From Chitinophaga lutea (GTDB taxonomy: Bacteria > Bacteroidota > Bacteroidia > Chitinophagales > Chitinophagaceae), in the NCBI RefSeq assembly GCF_003813775.1, contig NZ_RPDH01000001.1:1922001-1986000 (forward strand): a DNA stretch of 64,000 nucleotides. Reading direction: 5' to 3'. The position numbers were made by a program, and so were the translations under genes. The notes under the pieces are model-generated. The model searched no databases and was not told the origin of the DNA. It worked only from the letters and a program-made list of their open reading frames with translations. Below are positions 44,437 through 61,755 of the stretch, in pieces. The stretch's first letter is position 1. Every line of letters begins with the position of its first letter.

Positions 44437-44479
44437 GCTCCCCCTGTTGGACTTGAACCAACGACCCTCTGATTAACAG
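44437..44479. repeat. att site, left copy (tRNA-Asn 3' part)
   Basis: The 43 bases are identical to 61713-61755 and correspond, on the minus strand, to the tRNA-Asn from the anticodon loop to one base past the discriminator. The following 193 bases up to the integrase hold only short AT-rich repeats such as AACTTAACTA and ACTAACTTAAC. Confidence 0.95.
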
Positions 44480-44672: not shown

Positions 44673-46013
44673 ATGTCATTGAGTATTTCGATTAGCCTGG
44701 ACACCCGCCGGGCTAAAAAAACGGGGAAGTTTCCGGTGAAGCTGCTGGCAATTTTTAATCGCAAACCTCGCCGCTATCAAACGGTTTACGACTTGAGCGA
44801 GGACGAATTCAAGGCTTTGTCGGCTAGGCAAAAATCAGAGTGCCTGAAAAAGATGCAAGAAATCCTCAAGCAATTGCAACGTAATGCCGAAGAAGCTGCG
44901 GCAGGATTGCAACCATTCACGTTCGAAGGTTTCGAGAAAGCTTTCATCCTAAACAATCCTTCTTTTCACCAGCGGAAGGCGATCAAAGAAGTAGCTGAAC
45001 TCGATAACCACCCTTTCAACCAGGTGATGTATGATAACCGCTTCCCTATTTTCCGGTTGCCTAAGCCCGAGTCCGACACGATCTTGGCGGTGTTCCTATA
45101 TTATATCAGCAAACTTTTGAACGAGCACCGTATCCGGACGGCTGTCCATTACCAGACTACGTACAATATACTCGCCCGCTTCAGCGGTAATGTTCGGTTC
45201 GTTGATATTAATGTCAGCTATCTGAAGCGTTTCGAGGCCTGGATGCTGGAGCATGGGTATTCTAAGACCACCGTCGGTATCTACACCCGTTGCCTGCGTG
45301 CCACCTTTAATGAGGCCATTTTCCAGGGAATCATTAAGCGGGAGAACTGTTATCCTTTTGGCCGGAGGCTTTATCAACCGCCATCTTCCCGGAATATCAA
45401 AAAAGCGTTGACGCTGGAGGATGTGAGTAAGATATATTATTATCAGCCGGAAAATGAGCGCGAACGGAAGGCGAAGGACTTTTGGTTGTTTTCTTATCTG
45501 GCGAATGGAATCAATCCTACTGATATCATGCATCTTAGATACAAGAATATCGACGGTGATTATCTCGTTTTTGAACGGGCCAAGACAGTAAACTCTACAA
45601 GACTTGATCCCCGCCCTATCACGGTCTTTATCTCGGAGGACATGCAGCGGATTATTGACTATTGGGGGAATAAAGACAAGAGCCAGGAGAATTACATTTT
45701 CCCCTGGATGGAGCATAATGTTACGCCTTTGCGGCAAGTAGAGTTGTGCGAATTGTTTGTCCAGGCGATTAATGACTGGATGGCGAAGATCCGGAAGAAG
45801 CTGGGTATCGAGAAAAAAGTGACGACCTACGTGGCCAGGCATACGTTCTCGACGATCCTCAAGCGGTCGGGCGTAAGTACGGAGTTTATCCAGGAATCTT
45901 TGGGACATACCAGCATGAAGACAACGGAGAGCTATCTGGATAGTTTCGAGAAGTCGGTGAAGAAGGAGTATTCGCAGCGTTTGGTGGCTTTTAAGGAAGG
46001 TATGGAAAGATGA
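44673..46013 (+). CDS. Tyrosine-type site-specific integrase
   Basis: The 446-residue phage-integrase-family recombinase has an N-terminal arm-binding module (opening SLSISISLDTRRAKKTGKFP). A SAM-like core-binding domain (about 140-225) contains YLKRFEAWMLEHGYSKTTVG. The catalytic domain (about 245-440) contains the first Arg in NPTDIMHLRYKNI near 293, the Arg of TYVARHTFSTIL near 390, His in SLGHTSMKTTESY near 415 and the nucleophile Tyr in the same stretch. The first His of HxxR is replaced, as in many Bacteroidota integrases. It is next to the left att site and should catalyse insertion into and excision from the tRNA-Asn gene. Confidence 0.95.
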   Translation: MSLSISISLDTRRAKKTGKFPVKLLAIFNRKPRRYQTVYDLSEDEFKALSARQKSECLKKMQEILKQLQRNAEEAAAGLQPFTFEGFEKAFILNNPSFHQRKAIKEVAELDNHPFNQVMYDNRFPIFRLPKPESDTILAVFLYYISKLLNEHRIRTAVHYQTTYNILARFSGNVRFVDINVSYLKRFEAWMLEHGYSKTTVGIYTRCLRATFNEAIFQGIIKRENCYPFGRRLYQPPSSRNIKKALTLEDVSKIYYYQPENERERKAKDFWLFSYLANGINPTDIMHLRYKNIDGDYLVFERAKTVNSTRLDPRPITVFISEDMQRIIDYWGNKDKSQENYIFPWMEHNVTPLRQVELCELFVQAINDWMAKIRKKLGIEKKVTTYVARHTFSTILKRSGVSTEFIQESLGHTSMKTTESYLDSFEKSVKKEYSQRLVAFKEGMER

Positions 46014-46223: not shown

Positions 46224-46276
46224 ATAATGATTTTTTACGCCAGAATGCTTAAATTTACTATGAAAAAGGTATTATA

Positions 46277-46815: not shown

Positions 46816-46817
46816 AC

Positions 46818-47804: not shown

Positions 47805-48119
47805 AGATTAATCGACGATTGCAACTCAGCACTATAATTCTCTATAGAAAGGAATCAGTCCCAACGCTCGGTTTTTCACAAGGATATTTATTAGATAAGT
47901 TTAAGTTAGGTGGTTTATTCGTACTATGAGTACGGATATAGGAAGAAAAACAAACCAGTTCTGACGGTATCGCCTGAAGTGGCTAAAGAAACTACTTTGC
48001 ACCCATGCCGAATATATTGCTACTGGACTGACTAAGCGTAGCACATAAGTAAGTTGGCCCAAACTGTGATTTCCTTTGACTGTTATTTCTTAAATTTCAG
48101 TAGAACAAATTATAGGGTC
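47805..48119. other. Intergenic region after hipT
   Basis: About 315 bases with no gene I can support. It is AT-rich with scattered short dyads. A promoter for the next gene is probable near 48075-48100 (TTTG and TAAATTTC) but poorly matched. Confidence 0.3.
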
Positions 48120-48983
48120 ATGGGAAATTTCAGAAATTGGCTTTCCTCGAACATGCTATTTCGTAATATTTTAGCCGACTTCGGATCCAGGTCTGCCTAC
48201 ACCGGAGAGCCGGGAGGGTTTATAACTTATTTCCAATATAAGATAGGCCCGTACCAGCGGGACCACCACCTTTACTTCCCCAAAGAACCCTTCGCCGTTC
48301 GGTACAACAATGAGGTATTCAACAAGCTTTTCGAGTACTCTGGAGAAGATATCTTTAAATACCTCGACTTCCACTTTGACGCCTTTCCCGAGAAAAACGC
48401 CTTTATTTTATACCTCGACAGGCAATTGACAGAAAGGTTAAAGAAAAGCCTAAGTAAAGAGCGCAAAATAAAACTGGAATCAGCCGCCGATTGGGTGGCA
48501 GAGAAAAAACGACTATTCCGCGCAGAAGCGGAACTGACCAGGGAGGATATTTCGCGGGATCTCCAACTGGTGATCGATAGTAAGGCGGCGGGAAAAGTTG
48601 ACGAGGCGCAACAGCGACTGGATAACCTGACAGATAAACTGGAACACAAATTTGAAGATGCGATTTCCCGATTGGAGAGTGCCTCTAGTCTACTTCCGAC
48701 CGGTAGTATCGGCCTGAATAATCAAAACCACCAGGATAAGCTGGTGCAACTTCTTTATCTATTGCAGAACCTTCATAACCCTAAAAATAGGACGGAGGCG
48801 CTCTTCAGCAGCTTCAGTAATATTAACCTGGCGGCGATTCTACGGCACCATTTCCGGGACTTTGCAGATAAGAAATCAAACACGATCGAAAAAAAAGCAA
48901 AAGCAAGTATCGCAAAGCTCAAGAACACCGACCCCAAAGTCCAAAAGTTGATCCAGGCTTTGGAGGAATTCTTCTATGCATAA
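48120..48983 (+). CDS. Uncharacterised island protein with coiled-coil middle region
   Basis: The ATG at 48120 starts a 287-residue product; an upstream extension of 22 residues is not convincing. The first 110 residues look like a folded globular domain (DHHLYFPKEPFAVRYNNEVF, then DIFKYLDFHFDAFPEKNAFI). The middle (about 110-200) is strongly charged and helical, likely coiled coil, and the end is helical and Lys-rich. No family was recognised with confidence. The position between the hip genes and the replication/mobilization genes is typical of small regulatory or replication accessory genes in Bacteroidota islands. Confidence 0.6.
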   Translation: MGNFRNWLSSNMLFRNILADFGSRSAYTGEPGGFITYFQYKIGPYQRDHHLYFPKEPFAVRYNNEVFNKLFEYSGEDIFKYLDFHFDAFPEKNAFILYLDRQLTERLKKSLSKERKIKLESAADWVAEKKRLFRAEAELTREDISRDLQLVIDSKAAGKVDEAQQRLDNLTDKLEHKFEDAISRLESASSLLPTGSIGLNNQNHQDKLVQLLYLLQNLHNPKNRTEALFSSFSNINLAAILRHHFRDFADKKSNTIEKKAKASIAKLKNTDPKVQKLIQALEEFFYA

Positions 48984-49129
48984 AGGAATAACCAGCCTTA
49001 ATTTTCCCATACTGACCTTTTCGAACTGGCGCAAACCTATTGAATTTCAATCGATAAAAATCCATGACCAATCCGGCATTGACTTCCCTTCCTGCTTAAC
49101 CCATCTTGCGTCCATAACACAGAAAGTTT

Positions 49130-49435
49130 ATGGACACTTTATTTATTCCCAATGAGAACGATTTCCGGCGGTGGATCAGGGAGGCACTGAAGGAATGCCT
49201 GGAGAATCTCCCGGTAAAAGAGGGAGCGACTGCTGATCCGCAGCAGGAGCCCTTACTCACCCGCAAGGAAATCGCGGGCATCTTCCGGGTGTCACTGGTA
49301 ACCCTCCATGAGTGGATGAAACAGGGTTTACCCTTTCATAAGCAGGGAGGCCGGGTATACTTCCTGCGCTCTGAAGTGCTGGAATACCTCAAGCAGAAAC
49401 GCAAATCCCAAGGAAAACTGTCCGGTCATGAATAG
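49130..49435 (+). CDS. Excisionase-like helix-turn-helix protein
   Basis: The 101-residue protein has a MerR/excisionase-type HTH in its second half (PLLTRKEIAGIFRVSLVTLHEWMKQG, then GGRVYFLRSEVLEYLKQK). This is the HTH_17 pattern found in Bacteroidota mobile elements. It may act in excision or control of the mobilization genes. Its end overlaps the primase gene by eight bases. Confidence 0.85.
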   Translation: MDTLFIPNENDFRRWIREALKECLENLPVKEGATADPQQEPLLTRKEIAGIFRVSLVTLHEWMKQGLPFHKQGGRVYFLRSEVLEYLKQKRKSQGKLSGHE

Positions 49436-50420
49436 GATAGCTATCCAGGAAGCCAAGCTGCTGGACCAGGTGGATTACCTCGCATTCCTGGGATTTTACC
49501 CGGAAAAGGTCCGTGGGCAGGAATTCTGGTACAGATCGCCATTGCGGGAAGAGCATACCCCGTCTTTTAAGGTCGACAGGGCGAAAGGCGTATGGTACGA
49601 TCATGGAATCGGCCAGGGAGGAACCATTATTGATTTCGGAATTGCCTATTTCCGATGTGATGTTCGGGAGTTTCTGGACAGGCTGAAGCCATATCTTTCT
49701 TTTCATCGCCCCGAACTTCCCATGCAGGTTTCCGCTCCATCAGCCGTTCAGTCCCCGACCAGCCAGGCTGGTGATAAGAAAGGGATTGTTGTTTTGTCCG
49801 CCGGCCCGCTGGCGTCGCCCCAGCTTTCCCGCTATTTGGCCGAGCGCAAAATTCCCTTTTCGATAGCGGCCGCTTATTGCAAGGAGGTACGATTTGAGTT
49901 GTCCGGTCGGCGCTTTTTTGCCATCGGGTTTAAAAATGACCTGGGTGGCTTTGAGCTTCGCAATGCGCATTTCAAAGGCAGCAGTGCCCCTAAGGCATCC
50001 TCCTTCCTGGATCAGGATTGTCATGAGCTGGCGGTGTTCGAAGGCTTCTTCAATTTCCTGTCCTTTCTCGCCCTGGTACAATACCGCTCCCTCCCAACCT
50101 GCAATTTCCTGGTCCTAAATTCCCTCGCCTACTTTCAGAAGAGCAGATCCATCATGGATCAACATGCCGGGGTCACCCTCTACCTGGACCGGGACGCAGC
50201 AGGTATCCAATGCACCGGTCAGGCATTGAAGTTCGGGCCGCAATTCCGGGACGGGAGCCACCTCTATGCTGGTAATAATGATCTGAACGACTGGCTGATC
50301 CAAAATTTCCAAAAGTTGAAGCAGGAACAATTTATCCTCCGACAGGCAGGAAGGGTTTTGCGGGTTGCCAACCACCCTCCACCGGATATTTCTCAGAGCA
50401 AGAAGAGTAAGCGCATATAA
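49428..50420 (+). CDS. Toprim-domain DNA primase-like protein
   Basis: The 330-residue protein has an N-terminal CHC2-like region without zinc ligands (WYRSPLREEHTPSFKVDRAK, GVWYDHGIGQGGTIIDF, about 35-65). It ends in a toprim domain (about 195-300) with LAVFEGFFNFLSF near 204 (metal-binding Glu) and VTLYLDRDAAGIQCTG near 246 (DxD). Such short primases start replication of mobilised DNA or of the excised circle. It is part of the module HTH-primase-small gene-MobC-relaxase. Confidence 0.85.
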   Translation: MNRIAIQEAKLLDQVDYLAFLGFYPEKVRGQEFWYRSPLREEHTPSFKVDRAKGVWYDHGIGQGGTIIDFGIAYFRCDVREFLDRLKPYLSFHRPELPMQVSAPSAVQSPTSQAGDKKGIVVLSAGPLASPQLSRYLAERKIPFSIAAAYCKEVRFELSGRRFFAIGFKNDLGGFELRNAHFKGSSAPKASSFLDQDCHELAVFEGFFNFLSFLALVQYRSLPTCNFLVLNSLAYFQKSRSIMDQHAGVTLYLDRDAAGIQCTGQALKFGPQFRDGSHLYAGNNDLNDWLIQNFQKLKQEQFILRQAGRVLRVANHPPPDISQSKKSKRI

Positions 50421-50484
50421 GTTCTTTAAGATGATGATCTCTTAAACCTATTCAATCCATTTTTTAATAATAAAAACGACGCAG

Positions 50485-50793
50485 ATGGCAGATTTGAAAC
50501 GCAAAACGCTCTCCCTCTCCAGCGGAAAGCTCCTGAAACTTTACGGCAGCAGCCTTGCCATTTCCAAAAGCCTGGAGATTGGGGAAGGGTACGCGCCTAA
50601 TATTTATTCTTTCACAGAAGGTCAGTCTGGAGGAAAGGAGGCCGGTCAAGTAACCAACCCCCACAAGCTCGACCGGGAAGATCTGATGGAATTGGCTGAC
50701 TTCAACATCCAGCTTTGGATGAATTTGAAAGCCAACCTCCGGAAATATGGCGTGGATAGCCCGAAGGTTTTCAACCAGGAATCCAGCAAATGA
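50485..50793 (+). CDS. Small conserved-looking protein of the mobilization module
   Basis: The 102-residue, fairly hydrophilic protein opens MADLKRKTLSLSSGKLLKLYG and has a C-terminal helix ADFNIQLWMNLKANLRKYG. No motif was recognised. It lies between primase and candidate oriT in the usual place of a small gene of unknown role in Bacteroidota mobilizable elements. Confidence 0.6.
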   Translation: MADLKRKTLSLSSGKLLKLYGSSLAISKSLEIGEGYAPNIYSFTEGQSGGKEAGQVTNPHKLDREDLMELADFNIQLWMNLKANLRKYGVDSPKVFNQESSK

Positions 50794-50891
50794 TGGCGGT
50801 CGAATCATTGGGAGCAACGCGGCTTTTTCCCGCTTTGCCACTGCTCAAAACTGCGGTGGCTTGCAGGATCGATTTTAAGCGTCCGGTTTAA

Positions 50892-50940
50892 GGCAAGCGG
50901 TGTTTTTGTAGGACAAAAACCGCTTGCCCTCTGCTCCCGT
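50892..50940 (+). other. Candidate origin of transfer (oriT)
   Basis: GGCAAGCG (50892-50899) and GTTTTTGT (50902-50909) pair with ACAAAAAC (50913-50920) and CGCTTGCC (50921-50928), a 16-bp dyad with a two-base bulge and a three-base loop. CTCTGCTCCCG follows. A large inverted repeat just upstream of mobC and the relaxase gene, in a stretch without genes, is the expected form of an oriT; the nick site would lie just past the dyad. Confidence 0.55.
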
Positions 50941-50991
50941 TGGTCGCATAGGGAGAAGAAATGAACTGTTTTACAGTTAAATCAAAGTGTG

Positions 50992-51351
50992 ATGACAACG
51001 ATAACATCCAAGAAAAAGGCAGGAGGCCGTCCGGTGGCGGCGAAGAAGAAAGCAACAATTGTCCGGGTGCGCTTCGACAAGGAGCAGTATTTTATCCTCC
51101 GGCATAAAGCCCAGAAGGCAGGGCTGAACTTCTCCGCCTATCTCCGCCAGGCAGCAGAAGTAACTGTAATCAAAGCCCGGCTTACCCCGGAAGAGCGGGA
51201 TTTCATCAGAAAACTTGTAGGAATGGCCAACAACTTGAATCAGTTGGTAAAGGAATTCAAGCAGGCGGGCATTTTAAAAACTGCCGCTCATGTTGAGGGG
51301 CTTAGGGACAAAGTGGATCAACTATTAAAACTATTGAGAGGTGATAAGTAA
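50992..51351 (+). CDS. MobC-type relaxosome accessory protein
   Basis: The 119-residue basic protein starts at the ATG at 50992 (a GTG one codon earlier is possible). A Lys-rich N-terminus is followed by a ribbon-helix-helix-like region (TIVRVRFDKEQYFILRHKAQ then GLNFSAYLRQAAEV). The MobC C-terminal stretch is RKLVGMANNLNQLVKEFKQAG. It binds oriT and helps the relaxase nick DNA. It overlaps the relaxase start by 11 bases. Confidence 0.88.
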   Translation: MTTITSKKKAGGRPVAAKKKATIVRVRFDKEQYFILRHKAQKAGLNFSAYLRQAAEVTVIKARLTPEERDFIRKLVGMANNLNQLVKEFKQAGILKTAAHVEGLRDKVDQLLKLLRGDK

Positions 51352-52303
51352 GGTTTTCGACGGACATAGTTTCTACCATGCCTGCCGGTATATGTGTAAC
51401 AAACAAGGTGCAGAAGTGCTGGCGACGGAAGGAGTGCGCGGGTATGATTACAAACTGATGGCGGAAGATTTCATCGGCCAAGCCGCGCAGCGACCGACTA
51501 AAAAGCAGGCTTGTTTCCACGCGGTACTGAGCTTTCATCCCCATGAAAAGCCAGAAGACTCCAGGATCGTTTCCATTGCAAGAGAGTACCTGCAGGAAAT
51601 TGGCATCGCCAATACTCAATTTGCCATTACCAAGCACACCGACAAAGCCCACCTGCATGTGCATCTCATCGCTAATATGGTGAACAACGAAGCCCGAAGT
51701 ATCAAAGACAATCATATCGGGTTGAGAGGAAAAAAGGCAGCCCAACAGCTTACCCTGAAACACGGGCTCATCGTAGCCGAAAGGAAAAACCTTGCCCTCA
51801 CTCACCAGGAAGCACTCGACCAGTCCGAAGCCAATCGCTACAAAATCTATACGGCTATCATGGAAAGCCTCCCGAAATGTCGGAATCTGGAAGAGCTGAA
51901 AGCCCGCCTCAAAACTTATGGTATTGAGGTACTGTACAAGTTTAAAGGTCAGACCCAGGAGCGGCAAGGCATCAGTTTTCGCCTGGAGAAGGATGTCTTC
52001 AAGGGCAGCAAAGTCGACCGGAGCTTCTCATTGGGCAACCTTGAAAAGACGCTTTCACAGGGTCAGCGGCAAAATCCAAGCCAGGCTATGGGAGCGACTA
52101 ATCCAATACCGTTATCCGGGCATGGTGTTTCTAATGCTTCCAATCCGGCCGGTCAACTGGCCCAGGAACTTGAGAATATAATGCTGCAATCAACCGGTAA
52201 CCTGCTATCTGATCTTATGAAGCCGGAGTATGTACCGCAGGGTGTTAACCCCGACTTGTTGCGCGAAGCTCGTAAAAAGAAGAAGCGTAAAAGACTGCGC
52301 TAG
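51341..52303 (+). CDS. Relaxase/mobilization nuclease (MobP/MobA-like)
   Basis: The 320-residue protein starts with GTG (Met-Ile-Ser-Lys). The relaxase domain (about 1-190) has a tyrosine in SFYHACRYMCN near residue 11, PTKKQACFHAVLSFHPHE near 52, and the metal-binding three-His motif HTDKAHLHVHLIAN near 99. The C-terminal 130 residues are basic and poorly ordered. It nicks oriT, attaches to the 5' end and pilots the strand into a recipient. Relaxase and MobC without a mating-pore system make the element mobilizable rather than self-transferring. Confidence 0.92.
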   Translation: MISKVFDGHSFYHACRYMCNKQGAEVLATEGVRGYDYKLMAEDFIGQAAQRPTKKQACFHAVLSFHPHEKPEDSRIVSIAREYLQEIGIANTQFAITKHTDKAHLHVHLIANMVNNEARSIKDNHIGLRGKKAAQQLTLKHGLIVAERKNLALTHQEALDQSEANRYKIYTAIMESLPKCRNLEELKARLKTYGIEVLYKFKGQTQERQGISFRLEKDVFKGSKVDRSFSLGNLEKTLSQGQRQNPSQAMGATNPIPLSGHGVSNASNPAGQLAQELENIMLQSTGNLLSDLMKPEYVPQGVNPDLLREARKKKKRKRLR

Positions 52304-52321
52304 ATCAGAACAGTATTTTAA

Positions 52322-52936
52322 ATGCCAAAAATTCAAACCATGAATGAGAATCTTTTGACTACCCTGACCGAGATCAGCGAAGGTCACACAAATAAATTAG
52401 AACAGCACGACCAACAAATCAGTGCCTTGCAGGAAACTTTGGGCCAGATATCAGCATTGAAAGGCGCGCTCAATCACCTCACCCAAGCCGGCGGTCCCAT
52501 TAATCAATTATTAATCCATCTACCCGAGCAGTCAAATCTGCACCAGCGCCTTGACCGTACATTGCGGGACACAATCACTGCCCTTTCCCGGCCGCAGGTG
52601 CAAAATCACCATCATCATTTCCCCAGGGTTGCCTGGGCGACGGTTGGCTTATTTCTTATGTTATGCCTCGTAAGCACCGGGTGGTATCTCACCGCTTCCC
52701 GGTTGGGCGACTTCCGTGACAATGATATCAAATACCGCTATCTGCAACTTATCGACAACAAGCAGGTGGTCCACCTGCTGCATTTCACAGATAGTTTGCA
52801 AAGAGCGCAGCCGGAATTTTTCCGGGATAGCGTGCTTTCGAAGGAAGAGGAAAAGCACCGCCGCCTGGAAATGCTCGACGAAGCAAACCGGAAAGAAGCG
52901 GAGGCCGAGCAGCTTCGCCAGAGGGCCAAACAGTAG
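52322..52936 (+). CDS. Coiled-coil membrane protein downstream of the relaxase
   Basis: The 204-residue protein has an N-terminal coiled coil (about 10-60), a short His-rich stretch, and one transmembrane helix at about 102-122 (WATVGLFLMLCLVSTGWYL). A second helical region of about 80 residues ends in Glu/Arg/Lys-rich sequence. Genes of this shape often follow relaxase genes in Bacteroidota elements; the function is unknown, perhaps linking relaxosome and membrane. An ATG six codons in is an alternative start. Confidence 0.6.
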   Translation: MPKIQTMNENLLTTLTEISEGHTNKLEQHDQQISALQETLGQISALKGALNHLTQAGGPINQLLIHLPEQSNLHQRLDRTLRDTITALSRPQVQNHHHHFPRVAWATVGLFLMLCLVSTGWYLTASRLGDFRDNDIKYRYLQLIDNKQVVHLLHFTDSLQRAQPEFFRDSVLSKEEEKHRRLEMLDEANRKEAEAEQLRQRAKQ

Positions 52937-52941
52937 TTATT

Positions 52942-53046
52942 GCCTACTCTAAACAAGAGAACCCACGCGTTGTATGCATCTATATTGAGATGCTCCGTGA
53001 GTGCATCGAGGCCTCACGCTACGGGTGTACAAGCACCCTCGTAATA
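52942..53046 (-). ncRNA. Candidate guide RNA of the Cas12f-like/sigma system
   Basis: Directly after the stop codon of the Cas12f-like gene the minus strand has consecutive stem-loops: GGGTG-CTTGTA-CACCC (53038-53023), CGTGAG...CTCACG (53018-52996) and GCATCT-CAATAT-AGATGC (52993-52976). These are followed by ATACAAC and then a single-stranded stretch starting GCGTGGGTTCTCTTG (from 52968). Cas12f and TnpB guide RNAs have this form, a stacked scaffold ending in a short pairing-prone stretch and then the guide. The order and position fit, but no alignment to known guides was possible. It could instead be a terminator region or the decayed right end of a TnpB-type transposon. Confidence 0.45.
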
Positions 53047-53061
53047 ATATTCCGACGGGCA

Positions 53062-53640
53062 TTATTCTACCACCAGGGCAATACCCGCTTTGTTGGCTTT
53101 GTAGGCAATTTTGTCCTTCAGGCTGTAATAACTCCAGTTGCGCAGCAAAAATTCTTCCTTTTTGGCGACGGCTTCCTTCCCTTCTTGCCCGGTAAGCAGC
53201 AGGGTGGCAACCCGGTGCTTCAGGCATAGATTGATCAACCGGCGACTGTAAACGTGCAGTTTATAGTTCACATACCGCTTTTCCGCGCCCCGGTAATGCT
53301 CCAGGTTTTGCAGTTTCCGGGTTAAGCCGTTCTTCGACCGGTTGAACGTGGCGGACTGCTGGCAGCGATGAACCGCTTTTTGAATTGCCAGCCGCCGGTA
53401 CAAGAAATCTTCTTTGGTGCCGATGGAATAACTATGCCGCCCGATCTTTACCCGGATCGGAATTTCCATCGAAAGAGTGGCTTCCGCCACTACTTCCGGA
53501 TGAAGGGCATGATCTTCTTTTGATACCTCGAACGTTGCCAGCAGGTAGAACTTGTGCTCTTCCACCTGGATGGAGCTGGTGCATAGTTTATACTCACTTC
53601 TTAGGGCGGCTTCCCAGATCGCCCGCTTGTCACCACCCTT
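53062..53640 (-). CDS. Nuclease-dead Cas12f-like protein, C-terminal part (after frameshift)
   Basis: Read in the minus-1 frame relative to the N-terminal part, from 53640, this segment (about 192 residues) continues the Cas12f-like fold: KGGDKRAIWEAALRSEYK, KFYLLATFEVSKED, then RHSYSIGTKEDFLYRRLAI, NYKLHVYSRRLINLCLKH and NWSYYSLKDKIAYKANKAGI. These match the RuvC-bearing half of Cas12f. The RuvC-I Asp (GIDVG-like in active Cas12f) is replaced within ATLSMEIP. The RuvC-II Glu (MENL-like) is replaced in ATLLLTGQ. The protein stops at GIALVVE, just before the zinc-finger/RuvC-III part that would hold the third acid. All three catalytic acids are therefore absent. A GTG at 53565 could start a separate fragment. 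Confidence 0.75.
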   Translation of the reverse strand, partial: KGGDKRAIWEAALRSEYKLCTSSIQVEEHKFYLLATFEVSKEDHALHPEVVAEATLSMEIPIRVKIGRHSYSIGTKEDFLYRRLAIQKAVHRCQQSATFNRSKNGLTRKLQNLEHYRGAEKRYVNYKLHVYSRRLINLCLKHRVATLLLTGQEGKEAVAKKEEFLLRNWSYYSLKDKIAYKANKAGIALVVE

Positions 53641-54158
53641 TTTCCAAAATACAGGCGGAAGGTGTGGCCAAATATCTGGCAGGTATAAAACCTACCGCCG
53701 TCTTCCAGTTTTATTTGGCGGAGGTCCTGCGGGGCTATCGGCATGGGAATATCCCTTCGAAAACTCCTGAGTGACCGCTCCCCCTTCCAAAGCCTGTCCC
53801 TTTCCTTGCCGAAGCTAAATACCAGTATTTTATTCAGACAACCCAGGATGCTCATGGGCATTTGTCCTTTGAAATACCGGCTGAGTAACTGGTAGGTAGT
53901 TCCGAGCTGCGACATCGTGAGAATGCCGTCCTTATCTTTCTTTATGTCCGCCAACCTTACCCGCACCTCGTCCGTGAAATAGAATAAGTCCTTTACCTGT
54001 TCCTGGATGAACTGGTGGGTGTAGATGAAATTGGCTGCCCGGTGGACCATTCGTTGCCATCGCCAGAAGGTTTCCCGCGTTTGGCGCTTCACCGCGGGAT
54101 CTTCCGAATGTATCAATAGTTGGATTTTCCGGGTCAGCACTACTTTGTTTTCCTTCAT
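53601..54158 (-). CDS. Nuclease-dead Cas12f-like protein, N-terminal part (before frameshift)
   Basis: The ATG at 54158 overlaps the sigma stop codon (ATGA), so this gene is translationally coupled to the sigma gene. The true part is about 173 residues, MKENKVVLTRKIQLLI to HTFRLYFGK; the last 12 residues of this frame are out-of-frame sequence. It matches the N-terminal wedge/REC-like half of Cas12f, including FRRDIPMPI and RFYTCQIFGHTF. The run AAAAA at the joint would need one more A to keep one frame of about 365 residues. That points to a homopolymer error, a real frameshift, or programmed minus-1 slippage at A-AAA-AGG. The paired protein would be an RNA-guided DNA-binding factor that recruits the sigma subunit; this is inference from family and context. 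Confidence 0.75.
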   Translation of the reverse strand: MKENKVVLTRKIQLLIHSEDPAVKRQTRETFWRWQRMVHRAANFIYTHQFIQEQVKDLFYFTDEVRVRLADIKKDKDGILTMSQLGTTYQLLSRYFKGQMPMSILGCLNKILVFSFGKERDRLWKGERSLRSFRRDIPMPIAPQDLRQIKLEDGGRFYTCQIFGHTFRLYFGKRVVTSGRSGKPP

Positions 54159-54958
54159 CGCTTTGCAGGTTTGAGGATTTCTTGAGCAGACACGTATTCT
54201 TTCAGGGCTTGCCAAAGGGGAATATTCAATTCCTGGGCAATCCTGTCAAAATTGTATTGTTGCTCTACTCTTAACTGGCAGATTTTTATTTGGAGATCAT
54301 TTAGGTACTTACTCCAATGCGAGGGTGGTGAGCTGCCGGAGGCGATATGGTAAGTCGGTTCCGGCAGCTTTATTCGCAGGATCATCTTTTTTAATGCGTG
54401 GATGCTTTCCTGCACCTCCTGGCTGATTTGTTGGTAAGGCGCGGCAAAACGGTTGGCGATTTCCTTTAGGCTGAGTCCATAGCGGAAGTAAAGCGTCATG
54501 ATGGTTTGACGGTTACCGGGCAGGTAGGGGATGGCGTCCTTCACCAGGTTAATTCTTTCCTGTTCCGTATTGGAAAAGCCTGCAAGTTCTTCTTCATTAT
54601 CGGGATCGTATGCCGCGGCCTTGTGATCCTCAAGGTATTCAGGATAAATAAGTTGCCTGTAGAACCGGTTTGCTGGTTGCCGGAAATAGTCATAACAGCC
54701 CCAGCGAGTACACAGCCGGATGAAGCGGAACAGGTGCAACATACTAGTCATTCGCCCTCGAAACTGCCACGCGCGGAGAAAGGCTTCCTGGACGATGGTG
54801 TGATTGGCAAATTCATCGCCTGTTATGCGATTTGCGTAATAGAGAATCGGTTTGTAAAGGTGCTCATATATATAAGTAAAGGCTACCTCTTCGCCTTTTT
54901 GATACAGAAGGAAGTATGAATGGTTTTCCGGCGTATTCGTGGTGATGTAGTGATTCAT
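54155..54958 (-). CDS. ECF-type sigma factor coupled to the Cas12f-like protein
   Basis: The 267-residue protein has sigma region 2 at about 20-95 (FTYIYEHLYKPILYYANRIT, then IVQEAFLRAWQFRGRM) and region 4 at about 135-190 (IPYLPGNRQTIMTLYFRYGLSLKEIANRFA). An extra C-terminal module of about 70 residues (200-267) has a helix-turn-helix look (FDRIAQELNIPLWQALKEYV). It is longer than ordinary ECF factors, and the extension could bind the Cas12f-like protein. There is no anti-sigma or SusCD gene beside it. Gene order, ATGA overlap and a nuclease-dead partner fit RNA-guided transcription, where the guide rather than promoter sequence would choose the target. Confidence 0.85.
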   Translation of the reverse strand: MNHYITTNTPENHSYFLLYQKGEEVAFTYIYEHLYKPILYYANRITGDEFANHTIVQEAFLRAWQFRGRMTSMLHLFRFIRLCTRWGCYDYFRQPANRFYRQLIYPEYLEDHKAAAYDPDNEEELAGFSNTEQERINLVKDAIPYLPGNRQTIMTLYFRYGLSLKEIANRFAAPYQQISQEVQESIHALKKMILRIKLPEPTYHIASGSSPPSHWSKYLNDLQIKICQLRVEQQYNFDRIAQELNIPLWQALKEYVSAQEILKPAKR

Positions 54959-54993
54959 GGCGTCGGCAGCTTGTCAGTGAGTAATGTAAGCCT

Positions 54994-55172
54994 GTAAGGA
55001 CCGGCGCTGCCCAACGCAAAAAAGAAGCGTGGGTTAGTCCTTACCGCACTGAAGGGCTGCGACACCCCTGATCACGAATAAGAACGCCCACGCTTCTTTA
55101 GCAAGATACCAAAGAAAACGTGAGCGATTTACCTTATTCCCGTGATCATGAAAGGTCGCAGTTTTCAGTGCG
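54994..55172. promoter_or_regulatory. Nested inverted repeats upstream of the sigma gene
   Basis: Four overlapping dyads occur. GTAAGGAC (54994) pairs with GTCCTTAC (55037). AAAGAAGCGTGGG (55021-55033) pairs with CCCACGCTTCTTT (55087-55099). CGCACTGAA plus CTGCGAC (from 55045) pairs with GTCGCAG plus TTCAGTGCG (to 55172). TGATCACGAATAAG (near 55069) pairs with CTTATTC-CC-GTGATCA (near 55134). The last two build one long imperfect hairpin; the second competes with it, so alternative folds are likely. GCGTGGG in the second dyad also starts the candidate guide sequence. The region separates the sigma operon from the divergent XRE/hsd genes. The remaining bases up to 55359 are AT-rich with no gene. 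Confidence 0.65.
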
Positions 55173-55359
55173 AGAATTAAAGCAAATGCGCTTTAGAATA
55201 TTTAAAGTTTTAAAACATTTGTTTTTTTAGATATTGTTTTACAAAGTACATTAATTGTTTTACAATAACAATAAAATAATTATAAGGAGCTATTTGACTT
55301 TAAAACCAATATTTTAGAAGTTAATAAATTGTGTGACACAAGAACAATTTGTTCACATA

Positions 55360-55683
55360 ATGAGTAAATTAATTAAGCCAGAAAGGCATTCCGAAATTTT
55401 AGTGATAAATCGTCTGGCCGCCGTATTGAAAGAAGAAAGAATATCAAATAAAAAGCTAGCGGAAATATTAGGCTATGAACCTGCCACCATTTCAAAATGG
55501 GCTACCAATACGATCCAACCACCGTTATCGACTTTCCTCAGAATTGCATTAATTATTAATCGCGATTTAAGGGATTTTTTTATTTCAACTAGAGAATTTG
55601 ATGATGCGGAAAAAAACATCCTCCTAAAGAACTTAACTGAAATAGCCGAGAGGGGAAAAAGGGCCAGGAAAAATAAAGCGTAG
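55360..55683 (+). CDS. XRE-type HTH regulator beside the hsd-like locus
   Basis: The product is 107 residues from the ATG at 55360, or 116 from a GTG at 55333. An HTH domain (about 12-70) reads LAAVLKEERISNKKLAEILGYEPATISKWATN, then PPLSTFLRIALIINRDLRDF. It is probably a controller of the methyltransferase/ATPase/HNH genes that follow 38 bases later, as control proteins are in many restriction-modification loci. Composition is AT-rich like those genes. Confidence 0.85.
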   Translation: MSKLIKPERHSEILVINRLAAVLKEERISNKKLAEILGYEPATISKWATNTIQPPLSTFLRIALIINRDLRDFFISTREFDDAEKNILLKNLTEIAERGKRARKNKA

Positions 55684-55721
55684 TTAAAAAACAAATTTTT
55701 AAATTATATATAATATACATT

Positions 55722-57290
55722 ATGCTTCCGGATGAAATTAAGTATAAAGTAAAAGAACTCTGGGATAAATTTTGGAGTGGAGGTATAAGTAATCCGCTAA
55801 ATGCCATCGAACAGATAACCTATTTATTGTTCTTAAAACAATTAGATGAAAAAGATCAGCAGAGAGAGAAGACAGCAGAATTTCTAAATGAAAAATATAA
55901 GTCGATTTTTGATGGGAAATTTACGATTCCAAGTGAAAACGAAAAAAGGAAAGCAGTCCCGAAGACTTCTTTACGATGGAGTAGTTTTACCAAATTACCT
56001 TCGGATGAAATGTTCGATACCGTTCAAACAAAAGTATTTCCTTTTATAAAACAACTGAATGGGCAAAATTCGCATTTCACGAAGCACATGCAAAGCGCTT
56101 CCTTCCTAATTCCCAGTCCGCGACTTTTAGCAGAGGCAGTAAAAAAAATTGATGAGATCTTTATTGAACTTGAAAAGGAAAAACGATTTATTGATGCACA
56201 AGGCGACTTTTATGAAGAACTTCTTCGGGAACTTAACACATCAGGTAAGAATGGTCAATTTAGGACACCGACTCACATAATAGAATTGATAATAGAGTTA
56301 GTACAACCTAAGCTAGGTAGTAAGATAGCGGATCCTGCTTGTGGAACCGCAGGTTTTTTGATTGGAGCTTATAAATACATAATCACCAGTCAAACGAGTG
56401 CGCAGTATTGCCAACCGGACGAAAACGGATTTCTACGAGGGTCTATTGCAGACAAGCTAGTAAGCAAACAGGCGAGAAAGGAATTGGAAGAAGATACATT
56501 TTTTGGCTTTGACATTGATCCCACGATGATTCGGATTGGGTTAATGAATTTAATGATGCATGGTATTTCCGTCCCAAAAATTGATTACAATGATACACTA
56601 AGCAAGAATTACAACGAAGATGAGTGTTACGACATGGTATTAGCAAACCCTCCTTTTACAGGAAACATAGATAAAGGAGATTTGAATCCTACTTTTTCGA
56701 TAAATACCACTAAAAGTGAATTACTATTCCTTGAGAGAATATATAAGATGTTGCGCCCAGGAGGAACTGCCGCTGTTATTGTGCCTCAGGGAGTGCTTTT
56801 TGGTAGTGGATCTGCATTTAGGAAAATTCGTCAACTACTGCTAGATAATTGTAAGCTTAGTGCAATAATAAGTTTGCCAAGTGGGGTATTTAAACCTTAT
56901 GCTGGCGTAGCAACCGCAATATTAGTTTTCACCAAGGGTGGAGAAAGTGAAAATGTGTGGTTCTATGATATGATAAGTGATGGCCGAACTTTAGATGACA
57001 AACGGTCTGAATTGTTTAAGGGAAACGGGGATCGCGATTATGGAGATTTGCATGAAATAATAACACAATACAGGTCCAAAGATAAAAGTACAAATAGGAG
57101 GCTAAGACACTTTATCGTTCCTACTTCAGAAATTGTTGCCAATGAATATGACTTTAGTTTTAAAAGGTATAGGGAAGAGTTTTTTGAAGAACTGGAAACC
57201 GAAGATCCTCAAAAAATACTATTACAATTATCTGAATTAGAGAAAGAAATACAGGATGGACTGAACGAGTTAAAATCAATTTTTCAATGA
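55722..57290 (+). CDS. hsdM: Type I restriction-modification DNA methyltransferase (M subunit)
   Basis: The 522-residue protein has an N-terminal HsdM helical domain (NAIEQITYLLFLKQLDEKDQ near residue 27) and an N6-adenine methyltransferase domain. SAM-binding motif I is IADPACGTAGFLIGAYKY near 206 and catalytic motif IV is MVLANPPFTG near 306. A C-terminal helical part (LLQLSELEKEIQDGLNELKS) usually contacts the S subunit. It methylates adenine in the host's copy of the recognition site. Its stop codon overlaps the hsdS start. Composition is far more AT-rich than the chromosome on either side. Confidence 0.95.
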   Translation: MLPDEIKYKVKELWDKFWSGGISNPLNAIEQITYLLFLKQLDEKDQQREKTAEFLNEKYKSIFDGKFTIPSENEKRKAVPKTSLRWSSFTKLPSDEMFDTVQTKVFPFIKQLNGQNSHFTKHMQSASFLIPSPRLLAEAVKKIDEIFIELEKEKRFIDAQGDFYEELLRELNTSGKNGQFRTPTHIIELIIELVQPKLGSKIADPACGTAGFLIGAYKYIITSQTSAQYCQPDENGFLRGSIADKLVSKQARKELEEDTFFGFDIDPTMIRIGLMNLMMHGISVPKIDYNDTLSKNYNEDECYDMVLANPPFTGNIDKGDLNPTFSINTTKSELLFLERIYKMLRPGGTAAVIVPQGVLFGSGSAFRKIRQLLLDNCKLSAIISLPSGVFKPYAGVATAILVFTKGGESENVWFYDMISDGRTLDDKRSELFKGNGDRDYGDLHEIITQYRSKDKSTNRRLRHFIVPTSEIVANEYDFSFKRYREEFFEELETEDPQKILLQLSELEKEIQDGLNELKSIFQ

Positions 57291-58723
57291 AGTCGAAGTT
57301 TCCAATTCACAAATTAAATGAGTATATAAATGAAGTCTCAATAAGAAACAATAAGGGTTTGGTGTCTGAGGTGTATTCAGTTACCAATTCTGATGGCTTC
57401 ATTAAATCTACAGATTATTTTGACAAAGAAGTATATAGCAAAAACATAAGTAATTATAAGATAGTAGAAAAAAACCAATTTGCCTATAACCCATCAAGAA
57501 TAAACGTTGGTTCTATTGATTATCTTCGGTCAGAGACAAGGGTCGTAATAAGCCCACTATACAATGTTTTTGTCTGTAAAAGCGTATTACAGCCAGACTA
57601 TTTACTACGTTTTTTGAAGAGCCGAGTTGGTTTAACTCAAGTTAAAAACAGGACTCGAGGAGCGGTGAGGCATAGTCTTCCTTTGGATCAATTAGGTGAA
57701 ATTAGTATTCCACTTCCAAATGTTGACCAACAATTACGAATTTCCAGTTTGCTTTCAAGTATCGATCTACTTTTATCAAAGAAGCACAATTGTCTTCAAC
57801 TCCTAGAAACTTTCTTAAAGGCCCAATACTACAGACTGTTTGGAAACCCGAATTCAAATAGCAGGCAATGGCCGAAAAAACCTTTTTCGGAAGTTTCAGT
57901 AAACGAAAACTCCAAAAGGGTACCGATTAAAGAATCAGAAAGAGATAAGAGACCCGGAAAATACCCTTATTATGGCGCTACAGGAGTAATAGATACTATT
58001 GATGATTTTATTTTTAATGGCGAATATCTATTAGTGGCTGAGGACGGAAAGAATCTCTTATTAAAAAGGAAAAATAATGCCTTTAATGTAAAAGGGAAAT
58101 TTTGGGTAAATAATCATGCCCATGTTCTGTCCTCAAATGGCGAGGTGAATCTAAGATACTTGGAGTTTTTTATTAACTATATTGATCTTAAACCATATTT
58201 AACTGGAATTGATCAAGTCAAGCTTAACAGGGAGAATCTTGAAAAAATAATGGTCCCGATTCCTCCAACAGAGCTTCAGGCGGAATTCTATAAAACAGTT
58301 GTTCTGGCGGAAAATCTCAAAGGTCGTATTGCTAGTAGCTTATCTAATCTAAAAACACTATATGAGATAGCCTGTACGCTCTCTTTTAGTGGCTCTTTAA
58401 ACTTAGAAATGGTAGATATCAGTGCGGTTAAGCCTTACACTGGTCCTGCCTCGGCGAAAGGTATAGGTGTAAAACGAAAAGTTGATCAACCATTCAAAAA
58501 CCAGGCTCTTTCTCTGAAAAAAATTATACAATCAAACTTCAAGACGAGGAAATTCAAATATCAAGAACTAGCTGAGTTGCTACAGGCGGCGTCGAGCGAT
58601 GAGCATGATTATGAAAAGTTCAAAAGAGTGATATTTGATTGTCTCAAAGGTGTAGGGGAGGTTAGTCTAAAACAAGTATTTGATGAAAAAGAGAGAAGTA
58701 TTCTTTTACAAGTTTCCAAATGA
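57287..58723 (+). CDS. hsdS: Type I specificity (S) subunit with C-terminal extension
   Basis: The 478-residue protein has two target-recognition domains (about 1-145 and 190-330), each followed by a conserved helix (LPNVDQQLRISSLLSSIDLLL near 144 and IPPTELQAEFYKTVVLAENL near 325). The first TRD determines one half-site and the second the other. After the second helix it continues for about 110 residues (AKGIGVKRKVDQPFKNQALS and beyond, a charged helical module ending FDEKERSILLQVSK). Standard S subunits do not have this, and it may dock the ATPase/HNH pair. It overlaps both neighbours by ATGA. Confidence 0.92.
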   Translation: MKSKFPIHKLNEYINEVSIRNNKGLVSEVYSVTNSDGFIKSTDYFDKEVYSKNISNYKIVEKNQFAYNPSRINVGSIDYLRSETRVVISPLYNVFVCKSVLQPDYLLRFLKSRVGLTQVKNRTRGAVRHSLPLDQLGEISIPLPNVDQQLRISSLLSSIDLLLSKKHNCLQLLETFLKAQYYRLFGNPNSNSRQWPKKPFSEVSVNENSKRVPIKESERDKRPGKYPYYGATGVIDTIDDFIFNGEYLLVAEDGKNLLLKRKNNAFNVKGKFWVNNHAHVLSSNGEVNLRYLEFFINYIDLKPYLTGIDQVKLNRENLEKIMVPIPPTELQAEFYKTVVLAENLKGRIASSLSNLKTLYEIACTLSFSGSLNLEMVDISAVKPYTGPASAKGIGVKRKVDQPFKNQALSLKKIIQSNFKTRKFKYQELAELLQAASSDEHDYEKFKRVIFDCLKGVGEVSLKQVFDEKERSILLQVSK

Positions 58724-60471
58724 AATTATTAAGAATTAAGCTACTAGAGCAATTTCGGAGTCTACCCGATAACTTTGAAATAAAGTTTATCTCCAACGGC
58801 TATAATGCAAATGCCCTGTACCAATTCATGCCTTATTGCCTAATTGGTAGGAATGGGAGCGGAAAGTCTAATCTCCTAGAAGCTATTGCTGCTATTTTTT
58901 ATCATATTGAGTGTATGAACCTGAATACACTTCCTAGCTCGTTTGTTTATGATGAAGAGGAAAATCCAGGTGGTTTTACAAGTGATAAAGCCAGTATTGA
59001 CGCTTTTGAAATTGAATATCTTTTTCAGATGGAAAAGGCAGACCTTCCTAATCCAGTTCAGAATATCAAGTCATCGTGTTGGAAACCGCCTCATGCGCAT
59101 ATTTTGATAACTAAGGAAAAGGGCAATTCCCCTGTTATAAGATGGATGAATAGAAAACTTTTTGAACATAACGGCGATGAGGTATTGACAAGATTAGAGG
59201 CTAAAGGTTTTTTTCCTAACTATGTTATTGGATACTCGTCCGGGGAGAATGAGATACTCAGTTTGCCCTTTTTCAAAATGAGATTTATTCATTACGATGA
59301 ATATGAACAGGCTTTGCAAAAGAAACTTCCGTACACTCAACCAGAAGGTAGGTTAATCTATTTTGATAATAGCTTGAGTCAAGCGGTTTTTTTAACCAAT
59401 TACTTAATGCAGGATACAAATATTCTGAATCCAATATATAAATCTTTAGGTATTGTTGGCGTTAGTCAATTTAGGATCATCATTAGGTTAAATGAATATA
59501 CAGAGGCATCTGAATTCTTGAATACGGATAATGAAGATGGAGAAAGGGATGAGGCCGAGTCTTCTAATAGAATTAAGCTTACTTCAAGGCTTGATAATTT
59601 AATTACCGTACTGAAAAATTGCTCGACTTGTTGGGAAAACAAAGAAGATGTGTTGTTTCTGGATTATTGTATTGATGATGCAACAAAAATGGCTTTTGCA
59701 TCCAACTTCGAGAATGATCCGATAAAGCTGTTCCAATCCTTTCAGATATTATTGACTCTAAATCTATTTGAAGTAAGTTATCATTTAAAAAAGGAACTGT
59801 ATGAGAGTTCGAGTCTGTACGTAAACGAAACAGTACCCGTCTTAGCCTCCGATCGACGAATAATGAGAGTTAAAGACTTAGAAATTACAACAGACAAAAC
59901 TAGCAGGATATACAATAAATCTTTGTCTGATGGCGAACATCAATTTTTGCACTCAATGGGGGTTTGTCTGCTTTTTAAAAACTCCAATTCATTATTTCTT
60001 TTGGATGAGCCGGAAACTCATTTTAATCCAGAATGGCGTTCACTTTTTATAAGTACTTTAAAAGAATGTTTACAGCAAAAAGGAACAAATTTTATGTCTG
60101 ACATTCTAATAACTTCTCACTCACCATTTATTGTTTCGGACTGTTTGCAAAGCAACGTGCTAGTTTTTGAAAGATCAAATCGTGAAAATAGTAAAGTAAA
60201 GGTAACCAGGCCAGAATTTAACACGTTCGGCGCATCTGTAAATCTAATAACAAATAGACTATTTCACAAGGAAGAGACTATTTCTATGATTGCAAGTACT
60301 CGATTGAAGCACGTGCTTAAAGATTTTAAGGCTCATAAAATTTCATTAGAAGATGCTATAAAAGAAGCAAACCAACTGGGGGATTCCGTTGAGAAATTAT
60401 TGATTGTTGATCAATTAAGGCGTTCATCATCAAAGAAAACAAATTCAACCAAAGTCAAAAGGAGGAAATGA
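58720..60471 (+). CDS. AAA/SMC-type ATPase of the hsd-like locus
   Basis: The 583-residue protein opens with an ABC/SMC-like head: Walker A in CLIGRNGSGKSNLLEAIAA near residue 41. A large insert (about 70-390) follows, then the signature-like SLSDGEHQFLHSMG near 407, Walker B in LFLLDEPETHFNPEW near 427, and the switch His in LITSHSPFIVSDC near 462. A helical tail follows. It belongs with the ATPases of OLD/RecF/PtuA style found in defence systems. It replaces the HsdR helicase-nuclease expected after hsdM-hsdS. The HNH gene starts within its stop codon. Confidence 0.85.
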   Translation: MKLLRIKLLEQFRSLPDNFEIKFISNGYNANALYQFMPYCLIGRNGSGKSNLLEAIAAIFYHIECMNLNTLPSSFVYDEEENPGGFTSDKASIDAFEIEYLFQMEKADLPNPVQNIKSSCWKPPHAHILITKEKGNSPVIRWMNRKLFEHNGDEVLTRLEAKGFFPNYVIGYSSGENEILSLPFFKMRFIHYDEYEQALQKKLPYTQPEGRLIYFDNSLSQAVFLTNYLMQDTNILNPIYKSLGIVGVSQFRIIIRLNEYTEASEFLNTDNEDGERDEAESSNRIKLTSRLDNLITVLKNCSTCWENKEDVLFLDYCIDDATKMAFASNFENDPIKLFQSFQILLTLNLFEVSYHLKKELYESSSLYVNETVPVLASDRRIMRVKDLEITTDKTSRIYNKSLSDGEHQFLHSMGVCLLFKNSNSLFLLDEPETHFNPEWRSLFISTLKECLQQKGTNFMSDILITSHSPFIVSDCLQSNVLVFERSNRENSKVKVTRPEFNTFGASVNLITNRLFHKEETISMIASTRLKHVLKDFKAHKISLEDAIKEANQLGDSVEKLLIVDQLRRSSSKKTNSTKVKRRK

Positions 60472-61499
60472 TATACACATATAAAGGGATTAATGGAACA
60501 TTTACAAAGGCTCATGAATACATCAAGCATTTAGTACTAGATGTTTGGTGTAAACCTAATGGGAATTTTTCCTTAAATAAACTGCATCCCGAATTTATAC
60601 CAATTGTTAAAGGCGTAAGAAATAAAAAGATATTGGCAAAACAGATTCAGGAAATATACAGAATATTTAGGCAAATTTCTGTTTCTGATCGGTCCGGTTT
60701 TAGGAAGCTAAGAAAAGGTTTTATTAATAATAACTCAATTGAAGAGTTATGTAAAGGGAGTATTTCTCCGCTAGTTTACTCAGAAATAAAAAGAATAAGT
60801 CCGGAACTCGAAAAGAGGTTGAAGAGATTCTTTAAAGACTTTTATTCAGAAGTGCCCAAAACTTCTGCATTCAAAAAAGCTTGCGGAGAAATTGGAGTTT
60901 TTTATAATGATTTTTTAGATCATAATGAATCAGAAGTTTGTCCGTTTTGTGGGATAGCCGATATAATGACTTCAAGACTATCTAAAAGGGATGCGTTTGA
61001 TCATTATCTACCTAAAGATATATATCCTTTCAATTCTATCAATCCTAACAACCTAGCCCCTATTTGCAAGACATGCAATAGTTCGTATAAACTTGCCAAA
61101 AGCCCTATACAAGATAAGAGCGGGAAGAAAAGAAAGGCATTTTATCCATTTGCAATAAAGGCTGTCAAATTAGAGATTAATGCCCAATTTACCTGTAAGG
61201 ATATTAATAAATTAAAGAAGTCAGAGATCGTATTAAAAATAACAAATAAAGCCTATCAAGAACAAGTATGTACATGGATGGATTTGTTTGGAATAGAAGA
61301 AAGATATGTAGATAAGTTTTGTAGTAAGGAGGCTAACTGGTGGCGAATTCAAATGTTGGATGAACTCCGAAATTCCAAACTTCAGAAGCACAAATTGTTA
61401 GCTCAGAAACTGAAGTTGTTTGAAAGCAACTCACATGTCGATAAAAACTTTCTTAAAATTCCTTACTTTATAGCATGTAGTAAATTAGGGCTGTTATAA
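60468..61499 (+). CDS. HNH endonuclease-like effector
   Basis: The 343-residue protein has a zinc-ribbon HNH core at about 160-210: CPFCGI, then RDAFDHYLPKDIYPF with the catalytic His after Asp, then NPNNLAPICKTCNSSYK holding Asn and the second Cys pair. Helical domains lie on both sides. The preceding GGAGG makes a rare visible Shine-Dalgarno sequence overlapping the ATPase end. ATPase plus HNH protein is the composition of Septu (PtuAB). Here the pair follows hsdM and hsdS, so the HNH protein is the likely cutting subunit, perhaps directed by methylation state or site recognition. Confidence 0.82.
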   Translation: MIYTYKGINGTFTKAHEYIKHLVLDVWCKPNGNFSLNKLHPEFIPIVKGVRNKKILAKQIQEIYRIFRQISVSDRSGFRKLRKGFINNNSIEELCKGSISPLVYSEIKRISPELEKRLKRFFKDFYSEVPKTSAFKKACGEIGVFYNDFLDHNESEVCPFCGIADIMTSRLSKRDAFDHYLPKDIYPFNSINPNNLAPICKTCNSSYKLAKSPIQDKSGKKRKAFYPFAIKAVKLEINAQFTCKDINKLKKSEIVLKITNKAYQEQVCTWMDLFGIEERYVDKFCSKEANWWRIQMLDELRNSKLQKHKLLAQKLKLFESNSHVDKNFLKIPYFIACSKLGLL

Positions 61500-61644
61500 T
61501 ACTACTATTTTGACTTATTAAAGTAAAGCACTAGCCTGCCCCCGACCTTTTGTCCGCAAATATGAAATAGTAAAAATTATATCAACTTGCTGAGATGTAA
61601 TTTCATCTTAACTTTACTGAGCACGCTCTTTCTATCTTTATTAC

Positions 61645-61695: not shown

Positions 61696-61712
61696 AAATG
61701 TTTGATAACCAA

Positions 61713-61755
61713 GCTCCCCCTGTTGGACTTGAACCAACGACCCTCTGATTAACAG
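61713..61755. repeat. att site, right copy (within tRNA-Asn)
   Basis: 43 bases identical to 44437-44479, covering the tRNA-Asn 3' half. The first differing base on the right (T against C) marks the end of the core. Confidence 0.95.

Follow-up and report, generated by a model that had tools for sequence, protein, structure and literature searches.

The 64,000-nucleotide stretch of Chitinophaga lutea DNA analysed here (the window) quite probably carries a likely mobilizable element of 17.3 kb on which a frameshifted member of the dCas12f-sigma family is accompanied by a predicted guide-RNA gene, and intact relatives of this unit are predicted to start guide-directed transcription. RNA-guided transcription by dCas12f and sigmaE in Bacteroidota is reportedly the subject of 2025 preprints: a G directly 5' of the target is said to be required, SusC genes to be targeted, and initiation to fall at a fixed distance beyond the R-loop. 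A literature search, with bioRxiv outside its scope, gave no dCas12f-sigma paper among the titles listed. The present analysis adds the predicted guide-RNA gene, the tRNA-Asn element with its relaxase and defence cargo, the guide common to 23 of 50 loci, and, for 12 of 48 loci, a match to the guide before the sigma gene. The unit comprises the following features.

54155..54958, minus strand: ECF sigma factor, 267 aa, intact (Pfam Sigma70_r4 4.9e-8, Sigma70_r2 1e-5)
53601..54158, minus strand: N-terminal piece of dCas12f, 185 aa in frame, with homology over the first 174
53062..53565, minus strand: C-terminal piece of dCas12f, 167 aa in another frame (guided_TnpB, E 1.6e-8, under the model's curated cut-off)
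52952..53040, minus strand: predicted guide-RNA gene (scaffold plus guide), from aligned relatives and covariation
52969..53040, minus strand: predicted guide-RNA scaffold, two conserved hairpins, ending in ATACAAC, 21 bp past the dCas12f stop
52952..52968, minus strand: predicted guide, GCGTGGGTTCTCTTGTT, from its position after the scaffold

The preliminary description of this DNA placed a Cas12f-like gene beside the sigma gene. What stands there is not one intact gene: it is frameshifted into two pieces. Against P0001, a 365-aa full-length Chitinophaga lutea protein, the N-terminal piece is identical at 168 of 174 positions and the C-terminal piece at 159 of 167 (residues 199-365 of P0001). 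Homology to the intact C. alhagiae protein covers 53637-54158 in the first part (its residues 1-174) and 53065-53679 in the second, in a different frame. Since homology switches frame across 53637-53679, we placed the frameshift between these two positions. Besides guided_TnpB, the C-terminal piece matched the NCBIfam model Cas12f2 at 1.1e-5, again under the curated cut-off. A relative of this piece was found in 6 of the 99 genomes searched, the window's own included, all six belonging to one genus. The reading frame, broken in the window, is open over 365 aa in five of the six Chitinophaga relatives (C. alhagiae, two of C. hostae, G021 and G035). The exception, C. eiseniae, has an in-frame stop close to the N-terminus (L009 near 10518, the same as L015), a second and independent lesion. 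The window copy, the only dCas12f locus found in its genome (G000), is probably inactive.

The family to which the two pieces belong was collected with the C. alhagiae protein as query, which gave 820 proteins, 356-384 aa long among the 120 matches listed; the query and 72 of these 120 form an alignment of 73 members. Scanning named genomes gave 188 confirmed places, and the counts out of 80 loci below refer to the 80 of these that were listed. None of the 73 members has the RuvC-I Asp. The window has Thr there, within the motif ATLSMEIP, where the preliminary description had read it. The place of the RuvC-II Glu is an alignment gap relative to active Cas12f, with E in 1 of 73 members at each of two candidate columns; the motif TLLLTGQ, described earlier as lying at the Glu position, is present, only near the RuvC-II place. 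The RuvC-III region and the zinc finger are absent, and all 73 members stop at one common residue, so that the early stop noticed in the window holds for the whole alignment. The comparison with Cas12f that had been proposed gave a full-length match: a profile of the 73 sequences, window excluded, hit PDB entry 9n9c, "Nuclease-deactivated Cas12f", with an E value of 3.2e-163 over positions 3-364. The same-named entries matched are 9n9c, 9n9m, 9n9o and 9n9q, and the next best match was a Cas12f effector at 3e-58. At E 1e-20, dCas12f occurs in 4 of 295 Bacteroidia-class genomes.

The sigma gene passed the Pfam cut-offs for regions 2 (residues 30-93) and 4 (residues 146-191) and has a C-terminal extension of about 70 residues beyond them. 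Its end shares the bases ATGA (54155-54158) with the dCas12f start (ATG at 54158), both genes lying on the minus strand. Domain content, extension and overlap thus agree with the preliminary description. A profile of 7 sigma sequences, the window's included, matched the RpoE chain 9n9q_C with an E value of 1.5e-43 over profile positions 14-263, the sole match at 1e-8 or better. The junction is conserved: in 75 of 80 loci a sigma-sized ORF (200-300 aa) terminates close to where dCas12f begins, and the window's sigma gave a tblastn match in 78 of the 80. Since both proteins match 9n9c/9n9q over nearly their full length, the window locus is, as judged by homology, a member of the known RNA-guided transcription system, the very family to which the preliminary description had pointed.

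Directly past the dCas12f stop, a conserved stretch was present in all 7 loci read first. The window scaffold aligned with 25 other sequences, which end in ATACAAC or near variants, and the guides begin there. The consensus fold of 21 scaffold sequences contains two hairpins with 13 pairs, 4 of them with changes on both sides. A covariance model (R1) built from these 21 sequences, the window's among them, matched 11 of 11 genomes, all chosen as expected carriers, with one match in the window genome. Rfam gave no family match at the scaffold or the sites (window 52000-56000 and four loci). A CRISPR array was also considered and rejected: the region 42500-64000 has no direct-repeat family above 2 copies. 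Of 81 loci, 50 allowed a first guide to be called, and 23 of these 50 guides start with GCGTGGG (GCGTGGGCTCTCTTATT with variants). Their loci lie in Chitinophaga, Sinomicrobium, Maribacter, Flagellimonas, Allomuricauda, Salegentibacter, Yeosuana and others, reaching into Flavobacteriia. Predicted guide-RNA genes also occur in rows. Salegentibacter sp. R32 has four with the same GCGTGGGCTCTCTTATT guide (L152, L160, L165, L169) on a different contig from its dCas12f locus (L066), and Pedobacter L029, L031 and L026 carry scaffold copies in a row, with differing guides, behind a single dCas12f gene.

Upstream of sigma, the window contains three further features.

55077..55093, minus strand: best guide match upstream of sigma, GCGTGGGCGTTCTTATT, 13/17 to the own guide and 15/17 to the family guide, with A in front
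55020..55183, minus strand: structured site upstream of sigma, a long imperfect palindrome with an alternative terminator-like hairpin and T-run (55020-55095)
55333..55683, plus strand: divergent XRE/Cro-type HTH gene, 116 aa (Pfam HTH_3 3.2e-6)

For 48 loci, both the guide and the DNA ahead of sigma were available; in each, we asked whether the guide matches at 13/17 or better in the 400 bp before sigma, with a 5'-G. The own guide did so in 12 of 48 loci, oriented toward sigma at a distance of 134-215 bp. The reverse strand gave 0 of 48, and shuffled guides gave a mean of 0.07 loci and a maximum of 2 in 200 repeats. Guides swapped between families scored in 4.21 loci on average (maximum 8), which is expected if the site also precedes sigma where the local guide differs. 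Of the 23 loci with a GCGTGGG guide, 11 showed no self match in this test; the window is one of them, and for two others, L078 and L081, the upstream DNA was short. A guide of the GCGTGGG type was found elsewhere in some genomes in which the site accompanies a different local guide (Salegentibacter R32, Galbibacter and Sinomicrobium). In Echinicola, F. taeanensis and Pedobacter, too, the site precedes sigma, and an R1 scan of F. taeanensis, two Echinicola genomes and P. panaciterrae found no GCGTGGG guide. From the matches in the 12 loci we infer that the guide may auto-activate the sigma-dCas12f-guide operon.

The site was further studied in a group of 38, of which 36 were counted first and L136 and L140 were added; membership rested on guide match and flank motifs, with the ORF not used. 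G stands before 35 of the 38 sites, the exceptions being A (window, L052) and T (L140). A small divergent ORF lies upstream at 35 sites, with none at L135, L136 and L140; among these 35 ORFs, Pfam reported HTH_3 in 26 and HTH_26 in 22. Within 900 bp of sigma, 19/19 loci with the site and 37/53 without it have a divergent HTH ORF; the 19/19 is partly by construction because the HTH profile was built from ORFs of the site group. In L135 and L136 (G109), a 331-aa transposase-like ORF (IS110-like by eye) replaces the left arm and the HTH gene at the guide site.

Structurally, a conserved GGTATACCAGTACC lies within a palindromic, terminator-like site (window 55020-55183; L128, L134, L225-L251). From the target onward, the site folds as a hairpin, at many sites with a T-run behind it (24 sequences; 8 of the 20 pairs changed on both sides). 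With upstream DNA included, the target may pair alternatively with the left arm of the long palindrome; the short hairpin of the window site has a minimum free energy of -34.7, which becomes -58.9 once 70 nt of upstream DNA are added. When each sequence was folded alone, the palindrome had the lowest energy at 21 of 36 sites and the alternative at the remaining 15. Across 28 sequences, the consensus fold has 21 pairs, 8 with changes on both sides and 4 of these in the central stem; it contains only this stem and two short ones, and the whole palindrome does not appear in it. The variable palindrome arms pair better within than between sites (outer 6.81 versus 3.92, inner 7.48 versus 5.50; reached in 0 of 2000 permutations). 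This test used 31 of 35 sites, four Chitinophaga sites including the window's being skipped for motif misfit, and its anchors were visibly misplaced at a few sites. It supports the arm pairing and is no proof, because related sites are non-independent. A simple inverted-repeat score did not separate the palindrome (median 6.0 with the site versus 5.5 without).

Does the site occur away from dCas12f? A site model matched 20 of 295 Bacteroidia-class genomes. Two have both site and dCas12f, and 18 have the site without a dCas12f match. We therefore regard the site as an independent element which guides match and rejected the idea that it is a mere product of RNA-guided transcription. Seven of the 18 matched at 1.5e-8 or better and the others at 2.5e-6 to 8.2e-4; at the seven strong sites, a small divergent ORF was present in 7/7 and a SusC-like ORF downstream, by eye, in 5/7. 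A pattern search for the target with at most 2 mismatches hit all of 14 genomes, guide genes included, with 69 hits versus 58 for the reversed pattern. The three Chitinophaga genomes gave 16 versus 31 (G000 5 versus 11) and the other eleven 53 versus 27. With such a control, target counts were rejected as sole proof of targeting. The flanks of the hits, on the other hand, revealed the shared structured site around many guide matches.

Among 20 stretches around other pattern hits, three are guide genes (L130, L131, L137) and seven have, by eye, a SusC-like ORF next downstream (L128, L129, L134, L138, L139, L141, L142). All six downstream ORFs tested contain a TonB Plug domain, namely five SusC-like ones and the second gene behind the L143 site, and one next gene behind the tested ORFs is SusD. 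Other guides gave similar cases. F. taeanensis has a site that matches its own guide at 14/17 with a preceding G and lies 261 bp ahead of a SusC-like ORF, and Pedobacter has two at 16/19, each likewise preceded by G, of which one lies 320 bp ahead of a SusC-like ORF; these three sites were selected by eye among 18 inspected hits, and the F. taeanensis pattern count was not above its control (9 versus 12). The guide TACATGGTTCGCGGCTC, which C. hostae shares with others, gave at least 43 hits, and none of the four inspected shows the site anatomy. The window genome contains a second site (G000:C3:292050-292066, 15/17, G in front), which precedes a small ORF without Pfam match and has no SusC-like ORF next behind (L124). 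A 452-aa ORF, integrase-like by eye, lies close to this site (L124, G000:C3:286500-297500). The second site may be on another element or a remnant of one.

The whole unit lies on a 17.3-kb element in tRNA-Asn (44437-61755), which is bounded by a 43-bp perfect direct repeat.

44437..44479, no strand: left attachment repeat, 43 bp, perfect, direct repeat with 61713-61755
61713..61755, no strand: right attachment repeat, the 3' part of tRNA-Asn (61713-61787, minus strand)
44673..46013, plus strand: tyrosine integrase adjoining the left repeat (Phage_integrase 1.1e-14)
50989..51351, plus strand: NikA/MobC-like mobilization protein (NikA-like 4.4e-18)
51341..52303, plus strand: relaxase, MobB-like (Relaxase 7.3e-32)
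52322..52936, plus strand: 204-aa protein, convergent with the sigma-dCas12f-guide unit
55722..61499, plus strand: cargo of HsdM, HsdS, a PtuA-like AAA ATPase and a PtuB/PDC-M01B-like protein (PADLOC and Pfam)

A primase-like gene is also inside the element, and Pfam gave no match for the last cargo gene. With its integrated state and mobilization genes, the element is likely mobilizable, in line with the carriage proposed in the preliminary description. The elements of the window, C. alhagiae and C. eiseniae have a common core and differ in cargo; the order of the 204-aa protein relative to the sigma unit is kept in the latter two. Beyond the site, the window carries the HsdM-HsdS-Ptu-like genes, and L008 and L009 carry, by eye, other restriction or defence-like genes. 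At 46818-47804 there is a HipA-like gene, in whose place C. eiseniae holds a different HipA-like gene (29% identity). More widely, at E 1e-4 or better, the fetched flanks of 20 of 80 loci and of 7 of the 23 GCGTGGG-guide loci, window included, contain a match of the NikA or MobB type.

By analogy with the solved dCas12f-sigma family, an intact unit would load the guide into dCas12f, and the guide RNA would bring sigma and RNA polymerase to matching DNA, where transcription would start. Binding at the site upstream of sigma would, in some loci, turn on sigma-dCas12f-guide itself, i.e., positive feedback; at other sites, nutrient-uptake (SusCD) operons would be turned on. The target is the 5' arm of the terminator-like hairpin as we model it, and an RNA begun beyond the R-loop, thus without that arm, would therefore escape the terminator. 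In the window strain, the frameshift probably abolishes self-activation, SusCD activation and terminator escape alike. The earlier proposal that the pair reads a guide RNA and starts guided transcription is upheld at the level of family membership and of a matching predicted guide-RNA gene; for this copy it falters on the frameshift in the only dCas12f locus of the genome and on a site without G. On the same frameshift and missing G we argue that the feedback loop in the window is dead or dying. A bolder and, as a whole, rather unlikely proposal is a mobile self-igniting circuit, in which one 17-nt guide, shared from Chitinophaga to Flavobacteriia, would aim dCas12f-sigma at the leader 5' arm before sigma and SusCD, with guided terminator bypass and the divergent XRE protein as the likely gate.

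Other readings of these data need to be weighed. We lean slightly toward the window copy being a relic, that is, a formerly working RNA-guided sigma unit that is now a functionless pseudogene hitch-hiking on the element. The dCas12f frameshift, the A instead of G before its own site, the second site of the genome (G000:C3, L124) without a SusC-like ORF next behind, and the lesion in C. eiseniae, whose dCas12f has its in-frame stop near the N-terminus, all point this way. Nevertheless, sigma, scaffold and guide are all intact, and the frameshift stretch contains a short homopolymer run, which leaves room for an assembly error.

The guide match before sigma could instead be non-regulatory; the site would then be a structured element of older origin and of its own (leader, terminator or element boundary), which the guide only resembles. 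We find this doubtful, while giving it real weight: 18 of the 20 class genomes with the site, among 295, gave no dCas12f match, and the site precedes sigma in Echinicola, F. taeanensis and Pedobacter, where R1 found no GCGTGGG guide. A mere resemblance fits less well with G in front of 12 of 12 matches (by the rule of the test) and 0 reverse-strand matches, with a like element before SusC genes that in F. taeanensis and Pedobacter bears the local guide's sequence, or with same-guide genes also away from dCas12f in Salegentibacter. Highly improbable, in our judgement, is that the dead Cas12f is a guided repressor and the neighbouring sigma acts alone. A precedent exists in TldR proteins, characterized in PMC13418256 as nuclease-dead, TnpB-like repressors, yet the sigma junction is conserved (sigma-sized ORF in 75 and sigma match in 78 of 80 loci) and dCas12f and RpoE appear together in one PDB entry. 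We retain the reading of a frameshifted member of a guide-directed transcription system.

If the self-site is truly used, a circuit with its own guide-defined activator and self-feedback would move between hosts, and it would be wired into nutrient-uptake operons via the site present there. This also offers a testable role for the conserved structured element and the HTH gene that accompanies it.

In TldR systems the guide RNA adjoins the gene, and the dead TnpB is not known to act with a sigma partner. The window unit shares with them the dead RuvC and the predicted guide RNA beside the gene. It differs in that a sigma gene overlaps dCas12f and is kept in relatives, and activation rather than repression is predicted. 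To CRISPR-Cas12f and TnpB nucleases (9nzo, 9nzr, 8hr5, 8dzj) the unit is related by sequence homology; in contrast to these, the RuvC-I Asp is lost, the RuvC-III region and zinc finger are absent, and 42500-64000 contains no repeat array. The likeness to dCas12f-sigmaE (9n9c, 9n9m, 9n9o, 9n9q) extends over nearly the full length of both proteins and includes the truncated 365-aa dCas12f and the predicted guide RNA downstream, as well as the G before most sites of the group, though not the window's own, and the SusC genes behind some. Unlike that system, the window copy is frameshifted and sits on a tRNA-integrated element with a relaxase and defence cargo; a guide match before the sigma gene of the same locus, present in 12 of 48 loci, may be a further difference.
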